The notes below the pieces were generated by a model, which did not search any database, was not told the origin of the DNA, and worked only from the letters and a program-made list of their open reading frames with translations. From a virus, in the IMG/VR virus record IMGVR_UViG_3300034104_002502, positions 1 through 24,928 of that record: a stretch of DNA of 24,928 nucleotides. One strand, given 5' to 3'. The position numbers were made by a program, and so were the translations under genes. Shown here one piece after another: positions 4,099-21,056 of the stretch; positions within the stretch are counted from its first letter, which is position 1, and each line of letters opens with the position of its first letter.

Positions 4099-5550
4099 AT
4101 GGACCAATTTTTATCGACCTACCCCTTCAAGAACAAGCCGTTCGTTCATCAACAGGCTTACCTTCAGCGCTTCTGGGAATACCCAGTAGCAGCCCTCTTT
4201 GCCGACATGGGCACAGGCAAGAGCTTCATGCTGATCAACAACGTAGCCATGCTCTACGACAGGGGCAAGATCAACGGGTTTTTGATCGTAGCGCCAAAAG
4301 GCGTCTACCGCAACTGGTTTGACACCGAAATCCCCAAACACTTGCCGGAGCACGTGGTCTATCGCATGGCCATCTGGAATCCGTCGCCCCGCAAGGCCGA
4401 GCAAAAGGCGATGGACGACCTGTTCACCGTCACAGAGGACCTCAAAATCCTGGTGATGAACGTCGAGGCTTTCAGCACGGCCAAGGGCACGGCCTACGCC
4501 AAGCGCTTTTTGCTTGTGCACAACGCCATGATGGCGATCGACGAGAGCACCACCATCAAGACGCACACCTCTGCGCGCAGCAAGAACACTGAAAAGGTGG
4601 GCCGTGGCGCGCGATTCAGGCGCATCCTCACGGGCTCCCCGGTCACCAAGAGCCCGATGGACCTGTACCAGCAGTGTGCGTTCCTGTCGGACGGGTGCCT
4701 GAACGTCAGCAGCTTCTACGTCTTCCAGGCCCGCTACTGTGTCACCGTGGAGCGCCAGCTCAACACCCACAGCTTCAAGCAGGTGGTGGGCTACAGGCGT
4801 CTGGACGAGCTCAAGGAAAAGCTCGACCGCTTCGCGTTCCGCGTGAAAAAGGAAGAGTGCCTGGACCTGCCCGACAAGCTCTACATCAAGCGCGAGGTGG
4901 ACCTGACGCCCGAGCAGCTCAAAGCCTACAACGAGATGAAAGCCTACGCGATGGCGCAGATTGAGGGCGGCTTGGTGAGCACGGTGAACGCGCTCACGCA
5001 GATCATGCGCCTGCACCAGATCGTCTGTGGCCACGTGAAGCTGGACGACGGCACGGTGCTGGAGCTGCCCAACAAGCGCATGGACGAGCTGCTGGCGGTT
5101 GTCGAGGAGACGGACGGCAAGATCATCATTTGGGCCAACTACCGCCACGACATCGAGGCCATCAAGATCGCCCTGTCCAAAGAGTACGGCATGAACAGCG
5201 TGGGCATGTACTTCGGCGACACGGACATGGACGAGCGCAAGCGCGTGGTGGAGGAGTTCCAAAATCCTGACAGCGAGATGCGCTTTTTCGTCGGCAACCC
5301 CAGCACTGGCGGCTACGGCCTGACGCTGACAGCGGCCCACACCATGGTCTACTACAGCAACAGCTTTGACCTGGAAAAGCGCCTGCAGTCCGAGGACCGT
5401 GCACACCGCATTGGCCAGACCAAGAACGTCACCTACATTGACCTGATCGCCGTGGGCACCGTGGACGAGAAGATCGTCAAGGCCCTGCGCTCAAAGATTG
5501 ACATCGCAACCCAGGTGCTGGGAGAGGAGTTCAAACAATGGCTTATCTGA
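4099..5550 (+). CDS. SNF2-type SF2 helicase/ATPase
   Basis: This 483-aa protein, starting MDQFLSTYPF, has a full set of SF2/SNF2 motifs. These are DMGTGKS (Walker A, 36-42), LIVAPKGVYRNW (motif Ia, 62-73), DEST (motif II, 148-151), LTGSP (motif III, 177-181), GGYGLTLTAA (motif V, 403-412) and QSEDRAHRIGQ (motif VI, 430-440). SNF2-like phage proteins are ATP-driven DNA translocases or helicases acting in replication, recombination or fork remodelling. I chose the ATG at 4099, with AGAAAG 9 bases upstream, over an in-frame TTG at 4069. Motif II is DEST rather than the DEAH/DEGH common in cellular SNF2 proteins. The two RecA lobes are complete and no accessory nuclease or chromatin domain is fused. 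It is the first gene of the rightward early operon and overlaps the exonuclease gene by 13 bases. Confidence 0.92.
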   Translation: MDQFLSTYPFKNKPFVHQQAYLQRFWEYPVAALFADMGTGKSFMLINNVAMLYDRGKINGFLIVAPKGVYRNWFDTEIPKHLPEHVVYRMAIWNPSPRKAEQKAMDDLFTVTEDLKILVMNVEAFSTAKGTAYAKRFLLVHNAMMAIDESTTIKTHTSARSKNTEKVGRGARFRRILTGSPVTKSPMDLYQQCAFLSDGCLNVSSFYVFQARYCVTVERQLNTHSFKQVVGYRRLDELKEKLDRFAFRVKKEECLDLPDKLYIKREVDLTPEQLKAYNEMKAYAMAQIEGGLVSTVNALTQIMRLHQIVCGHVKLDDGTVLELPNKRMDELLAVVEETDGKIIIWANYRHDIEAIKIALSKEYGMNSVGMYFGDTDMDERKRVVEEFQNPDSEMRFFVGNPSTGGYGLTLTAAHTMVYYSNSFDLEKRLQSEDRAHRIGQTKNVTYIDLIAVGTVDEKIVKALRSKIDIATQVLGEEFKQWLI

Positions 5551-18233: not shown

Positions 18234-18392
18234 TCACCCCTTTGCAGCGCGCATGTTGTCGACAAGGTTGGGGTACGGACGGCCTGCTTTTTTGGCAGCG
18301 GCCTTTGCGGACGCTTTCTTTGCAGGGGTCAAGGCCTTGGGCTTGCCCAGAGCTTTTGGACGCTTTTTGTCCCAAACAGGTGTGTTTTTCAT
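18234..18392 (-). CDS. small basic Lys/Ala-rich protein, 52 aa
   Basis: A 52-codon gene starts at an ATG at 18392 with AAGGGG 7 bases upstream and ends TGA one base before the stabilization gene. The product starts MKNTPVWDKKRPKALGKPK. It contains an AKKASAKAAAKKAGRPYP stretch (24-41) and ends NLVDNMRAAKG. With about 14 Lys/Arg and many Ala, it resembles a histone-tail-like or structure-poor DNA-binding peptide, and the GRPYPNLVDN segment looks like a folded, conserved end. I recall similar tiny proteins beside tail genes in aquatic podoviruses but know no function. It could neutralise DNA near the portal, be a virion-packaged peptide, or act as an assembly factor. Confidence 0.8.
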   Translation of the reverse strand: MKNTPVWDKKRPKALGKPKALTPAKKASAKAAAKKAGRPYPNLVDNMRAAKG

Positions 18393-18433: not shown

Positions 18434-18940
18434 TTAACTCAGGAACAGCGCAATCTCTGCCTCACGGCGCTTGACCAATCCTGGCAGGACTTTGCCTCCG
18501 CCCTTGGTCCAGACTCGAAACGATTCGGCTGCGCCATCCCAGTCCCCACGGTTGGCCCGCATGCGGATCGTGGACCGCTGAAGGTTGCCTAGCCCGAAGT
18601 TAAAGGAAATAGAGACAAGAGCGTCGAAAGAGCCTTGACGCCCAACCACGCCGGGAACAAGACGAAGAACACCCCGTTCAAAAGTTCCGACATCAACGCG
18701 GAATAGTTCGTCGATTTCCGTTTTCGTCCAGACACGGTTGTCCTCCGGTTCCAATGGCATCTCTTTGCGGATCATGGGGGTCTCTTTGCCCTCCACGCGC
18801 ACCACAGGGAGCCTGATCTGTTCTTGGTACAGGACGTGGCCGTAGCCGATCGTCCAGATGTGCGCAGGACACAAGTAGGGCCGGGAGCGAAAGCCCTCGT
18901 ACCTGTGCATCAGGTCTTCACCTGCCTTGCTCAACTTCAC
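18434..18940 (-). CDS. GH24 endolysin (T4/P22-type lysozyme)
   Basis: This 168-aa muramidase begins MKLSKAGEDLMHRYEGFRS and continues PYLCPAHIWTIGYGH. The catalytic set of GH24 enzymes is E15, C24 and T30 with the family spacing (E-x8-D/C-x5-T). Asp is replaced by Cys, a variant known to be active in this family. It hydrolyses the MurNAc-GlcNAc bond of peptidoglycan to release progeny. The later FDALVSISFNFGLGNLQRST segment is the conserved helical core. There is an extra loop of about 40 residues (roughly 37-75) after the catalytic region. I chose GTG at 18938-18940: GGAG lies 6 bases upstream and it overlaps the holin stop as GTGA, whereas the GTG at 18952 has no good site. No signal or SAR anchor is visible, so export depends on the holin. 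Confidence 0.93.
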   Translation of the reverse strand: MKLSKAGEDLMHRYEGFRSRPYLCPAHIWTIGYGHVLYQEQIRLPVVRVEGKETPMIRKEMPLEPEDNRVWTKTEIDELFRVDVGTFERGVLRLVPGVVGRQGSFDALVSISFNFGLGNLQRSTIRMRANRGDWDGAAESFRVWTKGGGKVLPGLVKRREAEIALFLS

Positions 18941-19440
18941 TTCTTGCTCCACTGACGGCTACCGAACCAAAACCCAATGATGCCGCCCAGCATGGCCATC
19001 TCGTCGCTGGAGAAGATCAGGTCGGAGTAGCGGATCACGTCGTCAATGCTGGTGATCAAGCCCGGCTGCTGGTACAGATACCAGGCCATGAAAGCGTTGA
19101 TTGCCACCAGCTCCAACACGAAGATGTAGGTCACAGTGGGGCGCACAGTGCCCACGTAGCTGGATACCCAGGTGCTGGCCTTCTCGAGCACCTTGGCGTC
19201 ATGCGCCAGTGCAGCTTCAGTCATCCTGGCGTCAGTTTCCATCGCCACCTGCTCGGTGCGGATTTCCTCAATCTTGGCTTGGGCTGCAAAGCCCGCAGCA
19301 GCAAGTTGAAGTTCTTTTTCGGTTTGCACGCGGGCCAGCGCCAGCTCGTGCTTTTGGTCAGCTTTGTTTTGGAAGTATTCCAGTAGCTTTGGCAGACCGG
19401 AGATCAGCAGACCTCCAAGAGTTGAAATCAGTGAAAGCAT
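18937..19440 (-). CDS. 3TM-type phage holin, 167 aa
   Basis: This 167-residue protein has a hydrophobic or amphipathic N-terminus (MLSLISTLGGLLISGLPKLL). A long charged helix follows (about 22-90, rich in Ala/Glu/Gln), then a membrane segment near 101-123 (PTVTYIFVLELVAINAFMAW) and a final hydrophobic part ending LGGIIGFWFGSRQW. The final GFWFGSR signature is typical of GTA-type 3TM holins, which form the lesion through which a soluble endolysin passes. The gene directly precedes the lysozyme, and its TGA overlaps that gene's GTG. The ATG at 19440 has AAGGGAG at 6 bases. The family assignment is fairly confident; the exact topology is not. Confidence 0.82.
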   Translation of the reverse strand: MLSLISTLGGLLISGLPKLLEYFQNKADQKHELALARVQTEKELQLAAAGFAAQAKIEEIRTEQVAMETDARMTEAALAHDAKVLEKASTWVSSYVGTVRPTVTYIFVLELVAINAFMAWYLYQQPGLITSIDDVIRYSDLIFSSDEMAMLGGIIGFWFGSRQWSKK

Positions 19441-19443
19441 GGT

Positions 19444-19872
19444 TTACTCCCTTGCGGCGCTGACCTTGTCGGCACCTTTGGTTACGGTTACTTTGTCGCC
19501 CACCACGTCCACGCGCATAGGCTGCTCTTCTCGGTCGAGCTTGTCGAGCTTGTCGATCAACTGCTTCATGACCTCAAACTCGGGCTTCTCTTGCTTGGGG
19601 TTAGCCCCCGCAATGCCGTTAAGCATGGAGATCAGAGCCGTCAGTGCAGCGCCAAGCAGGCCCATCACCGCAGCAATCTTTTCGCCATCCAGCACGATGG
19701 ACGCGCCCACGCCGATTGCAATGATCAGCGTGATGTAGAACAGGCCACCCTCACCAATGGCCTTGCCAGCAACCTCCTTGGCCGTGTTCTGTGCGTTTAG
19801 CTTATCCAGCTCCACTCTGGCTTGTGCTTTGATAATCGCCAATTCATGCGACATGTTTACTGGATCAGTCAT
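19444..19872 (-). CDS. two-membrane-segment protein of the lysis cassette, 142 aa
   Basis: This 142-residue protein starts MTDPVNMSHELAI. A helical charged N-terminal region (8-38) is followed by two hydrophobic segments (about 43-61, GLFYITLIIAIGVGASIVL, and 66-88) and a charged C-terminal tail (95-142, KQLIDKLDKLDREE). The hairpin topology with short loops resembles class II holins. Since a 3TM-type holin lies next to it, this may be a second holin, an antiholin or a lysis-timing protein. The first ATG at 19872 is kept because GGGAG lies 7 bases upstream; the second Met at residue 7 has none. No enzymatic motif is seen. It ends 3 bases before the holin start. Confidence 0.75.
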   Translation of the reverse strand: MTDPVNMSHELAIIKAQARVELDKLNAQNTAKEVAGKAIGEGGLFYITLIIAIGVGASIVLDGEKIAAVMGLLGAALTALISMLNGIAGANPKQEKPEFEVMKQLIDKLDKLDREEQPMRVDVVGDKVTVTKGADKVSAARE

Positions 19873-19899
19873 GGTGTTCTCCCGAGAGTATTGGTAGCA

Positions 19900-20517
19900 T
19901 CAATTACCCCTTTTGGTTAGCATGGCGCTGGCAATCTCCAGCATGAATCTTACTTGCTCAATGTCCTTGGGCGGCTCTGCCCAGCCTACCGTGACTTGGC
20001 CCACGAACCTGTGACTGTCAGGAGGGACGCTTACCCGGCAGGTGTACACGACGCCCTTCTCCAAGTACCACAAGCCGACCTCGGACTGTGCATAGCGGTA
20101 CTCGCCACACGGTATCTCGTTGGTCATCAGCCGCACCACGTCCGAGTTGTTGGCGGAGTTCTGGCTGAACAGCCCCACGTCGATGTCCTCAATCGTTTTG
20201 TCCCTGCCGTCCTTCGTGTAGGCCCGGTACAGCACTCGACTGTTGAACAGCGGGTTGACCTTGAACACGGCAACAACAGTAGCCCCTGTCTTCTTCAGCA
20301 ACATGGAGCTTGCGTCATCTGCCCTGGCCGTGTTGATCTCTGGCAGCTTCTTGGACTCCTTGTAGGCGTCCATCATGAAGGTTTGGTTTTGCCACAGGAA
20401 GTAACCAGCGAAGGCCACTACGCCCATGATGAGGATGGCGAAAAGTTTAAAAGGCGAGTCCACATACCCGAGCACCTTGTCCAGGGTTGTGTTGGCGTTT
20501 AGTTTTTCGTCGCTCAT
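19900..20517 (-). CDS. single-pass membrane protein, 205 aa, with external domain
   Basis: This 205-residue protein has a short cytoplasmic N-terminus (1-22), one clear membrane segment (about 24-42, KLFAILIMGVVAFAGYFLW) and a C-terminal domain of about 160 residues. That domain has two Cys (C137 and C160) that could form a disulphide in the periplasm, consistent with N-in/C-out topology. I see no lipobox, so it is not a typical o-spanin; an i-spanin would have a longer coiled coil and fewer strands. The function is unknown; the neighbours suggest a role in lysis or envelope interaction. Its ATG overlaps the stop of the 148-aa gene as ATGA. Confidence 0.72.
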   Translation of the reverse strand: MSDEKLNANTTLDKVLGYVDSPFKLFAILIMGVVAFAGYFLWQNQTFMMDAYKESKKLPEINTARADDASSMLLKKTGATVVAVFKVNPLFNSRVLYRAYTKDGRDKTIEDIDVGLFSQNSANNSDVVRLMTNEIPCGEYRYAQSEVGLWYLEKGVVYTCRVSVPPDSHRFVGQVTVGWAEPPKDIEQVRFMLEIASAMLTKRGN

Positions 20518-20960
20518 CGCAGGTGCAGCATGTAAAGAATAATGCCGTAAATCAGGAGAGCCGCCAAGACCAAAGACGCGATGCCAAGAGCAATGTACTC
20601 AACAAGCTGGGCAAGCTGCTCCTTGCGCCTGAGTGCCTCGCGTTCTGCCTCTTCTTTGGCCTCGCGACGCTTGCGCGCAGCAGCCGCTTGGAACTTCTGC
20701 CAGTCATTCCACATGCCCGGACGGCCGGCGTAAACCATGCGCTCGCGCAGCTCTTCTTCCTGCTGCCGGAGCTGCTCCAGCGCCATAAACTCCGCGAGGT
20801 CCGAACCTCCGCCCTTTTGGGTAGAGGCCTCTTGAATTTTGGCCTTGTTGTCGAAGTAATCAAAGACCCTGGAGCCGAGCTGGTGCAGCTCCTTGCCGTT
20901 GGCCAGAGCGCCTTTTATTACTGCAAAGGCCGCGTTGGCGGCGGCAATTTCTGCCAACAT
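20514..20960 (-). CDS. coiled-coil protein with C-terminal membrane anchor, 148 aa
   Basis: This 148-residue protein starts MLAEIAAANAAFAVIKGAL. A central helix-rich part includes SDLAEFMALEQLRQQEEELR (53-72), followed by MVYAGRPGMWNDWQKF (75-90). A very basic helix (95-118, ARKRREAKEEAEREALRRK) then leads to one C-terminal membrane segment (about 121-145, ending ILYMLHLR). The tail-anchored layout leaves most of the protein on one side, probably the cytoplasm. I recall similar proteins in aquatic phage genomes without a known function. It may be a lysis regulator or membrane-bound assembly factor. The ATG at 20960 has GGGGA upstream, within the stop region of the 30-aa gene, so coupling is likely. 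Confidence 0.75.
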   Translation of the reverse strand: MLAEIAAANAAFAVIKGALANGKELHQLGSRVFDYFDNKAKIQEASTQKGGGSDLAEFMALEQLRQQEEELRERMVYAGRPGMWNDWQKFQAAAARKRREAKEEAEREALRRKEQLAQLVEYIALGIASLVLAALLIYGIILYMLHLR

Positions 20961-20963
20961 ACC

Positions 20964-21056
20964 TCATCCCCACATAAGAATAACAGACCGCGCTGTCCAA
21001 ATCGTCAATGCCACCAGACCGGCCGCTGCGATAAAAGCAACAGCCCAGTCTCTCAT
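20964..21056 (-). CDS. 30-aa single-pass membrane peptide
   Basis: A short gene with an ATG at 21056 and AAGGGG 6 bases upstream encodes MRDWAVAFIAAAGLVALTIW and ends TARSVILMWG. Nearly all of it is one membrane segment with a short charged N-terminus, and its stop lies just before the start region of the 148-aa gene. It is too small for ordinary gene callers, but the ribosome-binding site, tight spacing and hydrophobic content argue for a real peptide. Small membrane peptides in such cassettes can be holins, antiholins or pinholin-like regulators. The function is unknown. Confidence 0.7.
   Translation of the reverse strand: MRDWAVAFIAAAGLVALTIWTARSVILMWG

Follow-up and report, generated by a model that had tools for sequence, protein, structure and literature searches.

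Introduction

Phage T4 possesses a class III holin, T, whose globular domain is regulatory and dispensable for lysis (as described in excerpts of PMC12162936) and serves lysis inhibition, a response to superinfection (excerpts of PMC11413866 and PMC12162936). Hole formation by T depends on a cytoplasmic amphipathic helix and on the bridge helix, and a periplasmic disulfide between its two cysteines is essential. The T4 antiholin RI has 97 amino acids, a signal peptide and the cysteines Cys69 and Cys75 (excerpts of PMC8385771). Cassettes with several holins are already known from Gordonia phages, P1 and N4, in which several membrane proteins are likewise found by one endolysin (excerpts of PMC9671378, PMC9025707 and PMC12642591). 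Here the entire virus record IMGVR_UViG_3300034104_002502 (24,928 bases; hereafter the window) was analysed, the completeness of which is not stated and which may be a fragment. Its block 18434-21056 is a modular phage lysis cassette, and one product of this block, the 205-amino-acid protein p205, is a T4-T-type (class III) holin candidate; this assignment is based on a fold match, weak sequence support and genomic context, and the explanation as a whole is given a probability of about 0.75. The likeness of the cassette to the multi-holin cassettes is one of layout, and the Gordonia hosts are Gram-positive.

Read on the minus strand from 21056 to 18434, the cassette consists of:

20964..21056, minus strand: p30, a 30-amino-acid single-segment membrane peptide (by hydropathy) heading the cassette; candidate small lysis regulator
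20514..20960, minus strand: pCC, 148 amino acids, modelled as helical throughout and tail-anchored by a membrane segment at its C terminus, the helical part presumably cytoplasmic
19900..20517, minus strand: p205, 205 amino acids, a T4-T-like (class III) holin candidate having a GAF-like domain with Cys137 and Cys160
19444..19872, minus strand: p142, a 142-amino-acid two-segment hairpin, which in relatives occupies the place of pCC and p205 ahead of the holin and the endolysin
18937..19440, minus strand: p167, a 167-amino-acid holin candidate immediately upstream of the endolysin, with a match to phrog_6637 and a PF11351 score under the cut-off
18434..18952, minus strand: GH24 phage lysozyme, the endolysin (PF00959, E = 1.2e-34; phrog_7)

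All of these open reading frames (ORFs) are open and lie close together: the end of pCC shares 4 nucleotides with the start of p205, the lysozyme ORF as listed overlaps p167, and purine-rich tracts lie immediately 5' of the starts of p30, pCC, p142 and p167. A preliminary description of this DNA had proposed five small membrane-protein genes before the endolysin, and membrane segments were indeed found by hydropathy. The same profiles agree with its picture of a single-pass protein with a two-Cys domain (p205, one N-terminal segment at about 19-41, with Cys137 and Cys160 beyond it), a tail-anchored protein (pCC, a single C-terminal segment at 123-141) and a two-segment hairpin (p142, segments 43-61 and 66-84); p30 has one segment. 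The lysozyme has no N-terminal membrane segment by hydropathy and should therefore need a holin. By eye, its Cys28 lies close to the usual position of the catalytic Asp in many GH24 enzymes.

p205 as a candidate T-type holin

In the structural model of p205 (mean predicted local distance difference test score, pLDDT, 82.6) a helix at 11-18, a membrane helix at 22-43 and a helix at 45-56 precede a mixed alpha/beta domain at 62-205; helices 11-18 and 45-56 are predicted at a pLDDT of only about 60. The order of these elements agrees with the architecture of T (excerpts of PMC12162936), an N-terminal helix, a single membrane segment, a bridge helix and a two-Cys GAF-like C-terminal domain being common to T and the model of p205. 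When the model was realigned against the 1000 best Foldseek PDB chains, three T4 holin T entries led with Z = 13.3, 13.0 and 12.6, the first of them (6psk_T) with 132 aligned residues at 3.0 Å and 10% identity. The T chains also gave the highest target-length TM-scores in the Foldseek list of 50 (6psk_T, 0.71), and among 32 BFVD matches at E up to 0.001, those ranked 9, 12 and 21 are proteins from Proteus and Serratia phages that bear the name T or class III holin.

Sequence comparison pointed the same way: phrog_860 ("holin") was matched by 11 of 30 p205 members at E up to 1 (best 0.0052), and alignment of the p205 profile with eight T-family proteins by using hhalign gave E = 0.0019 (local) and 0.00035 (global, over 191 columns). 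Cys137 and Cys160 are invariant in an alignment of 30 members; in 154 aligned rows they are present in 149 and 148, respectively, the others being gaps, with zero substitutions. The stretch around Cys160 (YTC...GQVTVGW) resembles, by eye, that around Cys175 of T (YSC...GTITMYW).

Several results weigh against this assignment. GAF is a common fold, and GAF photoreceptor domains reach Z = 12.6, which counts as tied with T (within 1 Z); the plain Foldseek order puts phytochrome first and T third, and GAF-labelled phage proteins are also found among the BFVD matches (ranks 8, 20 and 23). The profile-profile probability for p205 and the T family is just 14-16%, and a search of PDB sequences with the p205 profile gave four matches at E up to 10, none of which was T. 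The cysteines of T are Cys175 and Cys207, so that, by eye, at most one position corresponds to those of p205. Finally, no endolysin is annotated beside the p205-like gene in the Straboviridae phages S13 and Ci1. The topology of p205 would follow by homology, the flanking charges, judged by eye, not deciding it. In the open-licence literature no paper was found in which a holin, a GAF domain and lysis inhibition come together.

Genomic context and conservation

Loci were fetched with p205, pCC, p142 or p167 as the query, so that the frequencies given below describe near relatives. Pattern scans yielded 446 relatives of p205 and at least 571, 592 and 595 of pCC, p142 and p167, respectively, the best 80 of each being kept; two extra scans with divergent p205 homologues yielded 7 and 20 loci. 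The 233 p205 loci were reduced to 154 distinct ones by merging those with identical last 450 nucleotides, and 133 of these have at least 1500 bp downstream. The totals for the upstream lipoprotein (44 loci), two kinds of short protein (100 and 59 loci), p30 (144 loci) and the position of the holin-type gene are per locus and not reduced by contig.

An endolysin follows within 2 kb on the same strand in all 133 of these loci, and a recognised holin-type gene is present in 105. The endolysin is swapped among GH24, Peptidase M15_3, GH19 and GH108 (representatives checked) while the p205 core stays. Of the 139 distinct loci in which at least 600 bp precede p205, 110 have pCC there; where at least 1800 bp are available upstream, p30 is found in 65 and a lipoprotein in 15 of 120. 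Conservation of the block as a unit, which had been raised at the outset, holds for most of it, which recurs beside an endolysin (the distinct loci examined numbered 154 for p205 and 63 for p142), but not for p142, which is not fixed. A scan of bacterial genomes with the p205 profile gave one relative among 50 pattern matches, on a contig of a metagenome-assembled genome labelled Armatimonadetes; no host was assigned.

Among named phages, gp77 of Edwardsiella phage GF-2 is a p205 homologue located directly before an endolysin and an Rz-like spanin, and the same order of matches was seen in seven of seven viral-contig loci, GF-2 included. GF-2 and Vibrio phage IKEMa6-1 share with the window a p205 homologue directly preceding the endolysin; unlike in the window, Rz and Rz1 follow, and no match to pCC or p167 was found in the fetched region. 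T4 T also differs from p205 in that the latter sits within a compact cassette alongside pCC, p142 and p167. A separate T gene may exist in S13, where there is a weak phrog_860 match with an internal stop (E = 1.2e-4); the other four of the five records have no such match. p205 was also considered as a spanin; this was rejected, since the GF-2 relatives carry Rz in addition to the p205 homologue, and a spanin match in only one of 30 p205 members (phrog_1152, E = 0.2) is at chance level.

Over 55 loci with pCC, p205, p167 and GH24, the mean pairwise identity is 0.869 for the globular part of p205, 0.846 for its membrane segment and 0.895 for the bridge, compared with 0.862 for p167 and 0.863 for the lysozyme; pCC is lower at 0.724. 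Because the globular domain is about as conserved as the membrane segment, p167 and the lysozyme, this well-kept regulatory domain suggests regulated lysis. Profile comparisons of 13 pairs of cassette families were suggestive for p167 and hol163 only (E = 3.4e-4, 18 columns).

p167 as a possible second holin

p167 matches phrog_6637 (E = 4.4e-16). The preliminary description of a holin with three transmembrane segments is retained as far as holin candidacy goes, but the number of segments is not firm, the profile having one clear segment (102-120) and lower peaks around residues 1-20 and 141-160. A holin-type gene stands between p205 and endolysin in 182 loci (p167 in 121, hol163 in 48 and hol145 in 13) and after the endolysin in four. 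Where the window has p167, loci L175 and L186 carry a PF11351 (GTA_holin_3TM) protein between p205 and endolysin (49.6 and 50.9 bits; cut-off 24.8), and that of L175 also matches phrog_3427 ("holin", E = 1.1e-23). Three findings weigh on the other side: the PF11351 score of p167 itself is 13.5 bits, below the cut-off; in four loci, L081 among them, the PF11351 protein stands after the endolysin; and ICP1 ORF137, which we take to be TeaA, gave no PF11351 match here. TeaA of ICP1, a PF11351 member according to the authors who described it, shows holin activity and lowers the proton motive force when expressed (excerpts of PMC7182436).

The leading alternative is that p167 (or p142) is the sole holin, with p205 a tethered, T-holin-derived regulator that senses a periplasmic signal and restrains p167. 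A holin-type gene does accompany p205 in the 105 loci mentioned above, and 8 of the 66 p167-anchored loci in which at least 1300 bp lie upstream have the endolysin but none of p205, pCC and p142; in T4 T, too, the globular domain is purely regulatory (excerpts of PMC12162936). In GF-2, however, no annotated gene other than the p205-like one lies between a Q-like gene and the endolysin; there and in IKEMa6-1 the endolysin overlaps the p205-like gene that it follows; and conservation in p205 is as high in the membrane segment and the bridge as in the globular part. We regard this alternative as possible but unlikely.

The 66 of 80 p167-anchored loci with sufficient upstream sequence (at least 1300 bp) comprise 32 with p205 and pCC, 15 with p205 but without pCC, 7 with pCC but without p205, 4 with p142 alone and the 8 with none of the three.

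Accessory membrane proteins

As an alternative membrane module, p142 normally takes the place of pCC and p205; in the window it is present in addition to them. Its relatives form 63 distinct loci; 48 have at least 1500 bp downstream, where an endolysin was found in 44 and a holin-type gene in 37. Among 55 loci with at least 1300 bp upstream, p205 together with pCC was present in one only (L012), so that this locus and the window hold both modules, and no p167-anchored locus of the 80 had both p142 and p205. In one further locus (L232) a 151-amino-acid protein with a mildly hydrophobic N terminus and two Cys, a possible periplasmic regulator, lies between p142 and the holin.

pCC is modelled as helical throughout, at low confidence (pLDDT 67.8). 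It has by eye no signal sequence, and its helical part is therefore expected to be cytoplasmic. In Pelagibacter phage Mosig (L359 and L360) relatives of pCC (partial) and of p167 occur at two unlinked places; hence pCC is not always within a lysis cassette. Relatives of p30 were found in 144 loci (E up to 1) and comprise 88 distinct proteins, most of which begin with M[KR]DW (60 of the 88 distinct proteins viewed). The most likely role of pCC and p30 is an accessory one, in regulating when the holin acts, although the functions of p142, pCC and p30 are guesses. Two other kinds of short protein with a C-terminal membrane segment, of 59 amino acids (L299:2947-3126) and 80 amino acids (L254:3742-3984), belong to families with 100 and 59 loci, respectively, and lie ahead of the cassette in those loci whose gene order was viewed; the longer protein has a weak match to a hemolysin family (phrog_1193, E = 0.0079).

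A candidate antiholin occurs in the divergent p205 lineage:

L175:4645-4914, L186:4648-4920 and 19 other loci: small two-Cys, secreted-looking protein

This protein of about 90 amino acids has a hydrophobic N terminus and two later Cys, and overlaps or abuts p205 in 21 of 21 loci, namely 20 of the divergent lineage and L001 (MW202825), the sole phage-collection record that matches it. It follows p205 in 20 of the 21 (the copy in L193 is cut at the contig end) and precedes it in L187. By size, export and Cys architecture it is a candidate RI-like antiholin. Against this, no sequence similarity to T4 RI was found (E = 0.44), and the protein is absent from the window and from 14 long relatives (best E = 2.8). 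RI was not among the nine PDB matches obtained with it at E up to 10, the best of which had E = 0.042. No RI-like small secreted ORF was seen by eye in the gene list of the window, for which no RI profile was run.

The outer-membrane step

That no clear spanin is present, as noted at the outset, was borne out within the window: the Rz profile PF03245 gave no match there, nor in any of 37 long relatives (the completeness of which is not stated), and a lipobox scan that recovered three of three positive controls found no lipobox ORF on either strand of the record, which may be a fragment. In a survey of phages of Gram-negative hosts, 91 of 677 genomes had no spanin candidate (excerpts of PMC6139136), so the lack of a spanin is not unique.

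In 44 loci of relatives (L288:2700-3299 and 43 others) the cassette is preceded by the gene for a lipoprotein of about 199 amino acids, the lipobox of which reads LTGC. Present in five of 14 long relatives and absent from the window, it is a candidate outer-membrane or exclusion protein. Four of the nine contigs without it have no lipobox ORF at all; the scan of the 14 otherwise gave 17 ORFs in seven contigs, which were judged spurious by eye. Comparison of the lipo199 and pCC profiles gave E = 0.23.

The absence of a classical spanin from the window and the position of this lipoprotein invite the proposal that pCC is an unconventional inner-membrane part of outer-membrane disruption, of type I with a C-terminal anchor and in some relatives paired with the upstream lipoprotein; according to Kongari et al. 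2018, the part of an i-spanin could be played by a type I protein whose membrane segment is C-terminal (excerpts of PMC6139136). Without a signal sequence, however, the helical part of pCC should stay cytoplasmic, and the two genes are not strictly linked, both being present in 22 loci, the lipoprotein with p205 but without pCC in 14 and the lipoprotein with p142 in 8. This proposal is very improbable.

A further gene adjoins the cassette downstream:

18234-18392, minus strand: Lys/Ala/Pro-rich peptide of 52 amino acids between lysozyme and virion protein (phrog_34011, E = 7.4e-19)

Disruptins are cationic amphipathic peptides that act together with lysis genes, and phiKT gp28, which adjoins the phiKT endolysin, is reportedly a disruptin replacing spanins. 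That the 52-amino-acid peptide has this role was rejected as the principal explanation and is most improbable: it does lie directly downstream of the lysozyme, has 15 Lys and Arg versus 2 Asp and Glu, and its family is also found with the cassette in six of 80 p167-anchored loci, but in two of 14 long relatives (G033 and G005) the family is about 14 kb from the lysis genes, and the peptide has no hydrophobic stretch, is by eye unlike phiKT gp28 and, at E up to 0.1, matches nothing in the phage collection.

Beyond this peptide follows a virion structural gene (phrog_3287, E = 1.6e-87). On the other side the cassette is preceded by a tail-fibre-like gene (phrog_12796, E = 7.3e-05) and a match to a virion structural family (phrog_8510, E = 3.6e-13). 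Elsewhere in the window, a helicase-like ORF with, by eye, a P-loop-like stretch (4099-5550, plus strand) is on the strand opposite to most other likely genes.

Proposed mechanism

By homology to T, p205, anchored by one membrane segment, would assemble in and open the inner membrane and so let the cytoplasmic lysozyme reach the cell wall, while its GAF-like domain outside the membrane would be regulatory. p167 would act as a second holin, p142 would be an alternative membrane module carried besides the usual pCC-p205 pair, and the tail-anchored pCC, on the cytoplasmic side, and p30 would most likely tune holin timing.

The unusual disruption apparatus envisaged in the preliminary description was too strong a claim: since p205 is best explained as a T-type holin and L175 and L186 carry a PF11351 holin, the core is one of holin-endolysin lysis. 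Its anti-superinfection idea remains alive in one form, as lysis inhibition through the T-like domain, which by analogy points to superinfection-linked lysis control. A tentative and, taken jointly, rather improbable extension is that this common group of phages, all uncultured, practises T4-style lysis inhibition with new partners, the p205 sensor answering a signal outside the inner membrane, for example a superinfecting phage; that the RI-like antiholin would be the coupled secreted two-Cys protein in one lineage, with pCC (cytoplasmic side) and p30 (membrane) in that of the window; and that the outer membrane would be broken by another route, classical spanins being absent. That the block is a superinfection-exclusion apparatus merely adjoining the lysozyme is most improbable: some members of the block have no assigned function, and the upstream lipoprotein of relatives weakly matches Cor exclusion proteins (phrog_1119, E = 0.0059), but that match is confined to the signal region (residues 2-25 only), and p205 has a T-type fold and is accompanied by an endolysin, of one of four families, at every one of the 133 loci.

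Conclusions

If p205 is read as a T-type holin, PHROG 31287 and hundreds of relatives without a name, among them 446 close ones of p205, acquire a proposed function. The coupled secreted two-Cys protein, pCC and p30 become candidates for the timing of T-like holins outside T4, and the upstream lipoprotein and pCC for outer-membrane breakage without spanins. T4-type regulated holins are suggested in small phages known mainly from metagenomes; if this is true, such phages may be able to postpone the lysis of their host cells.

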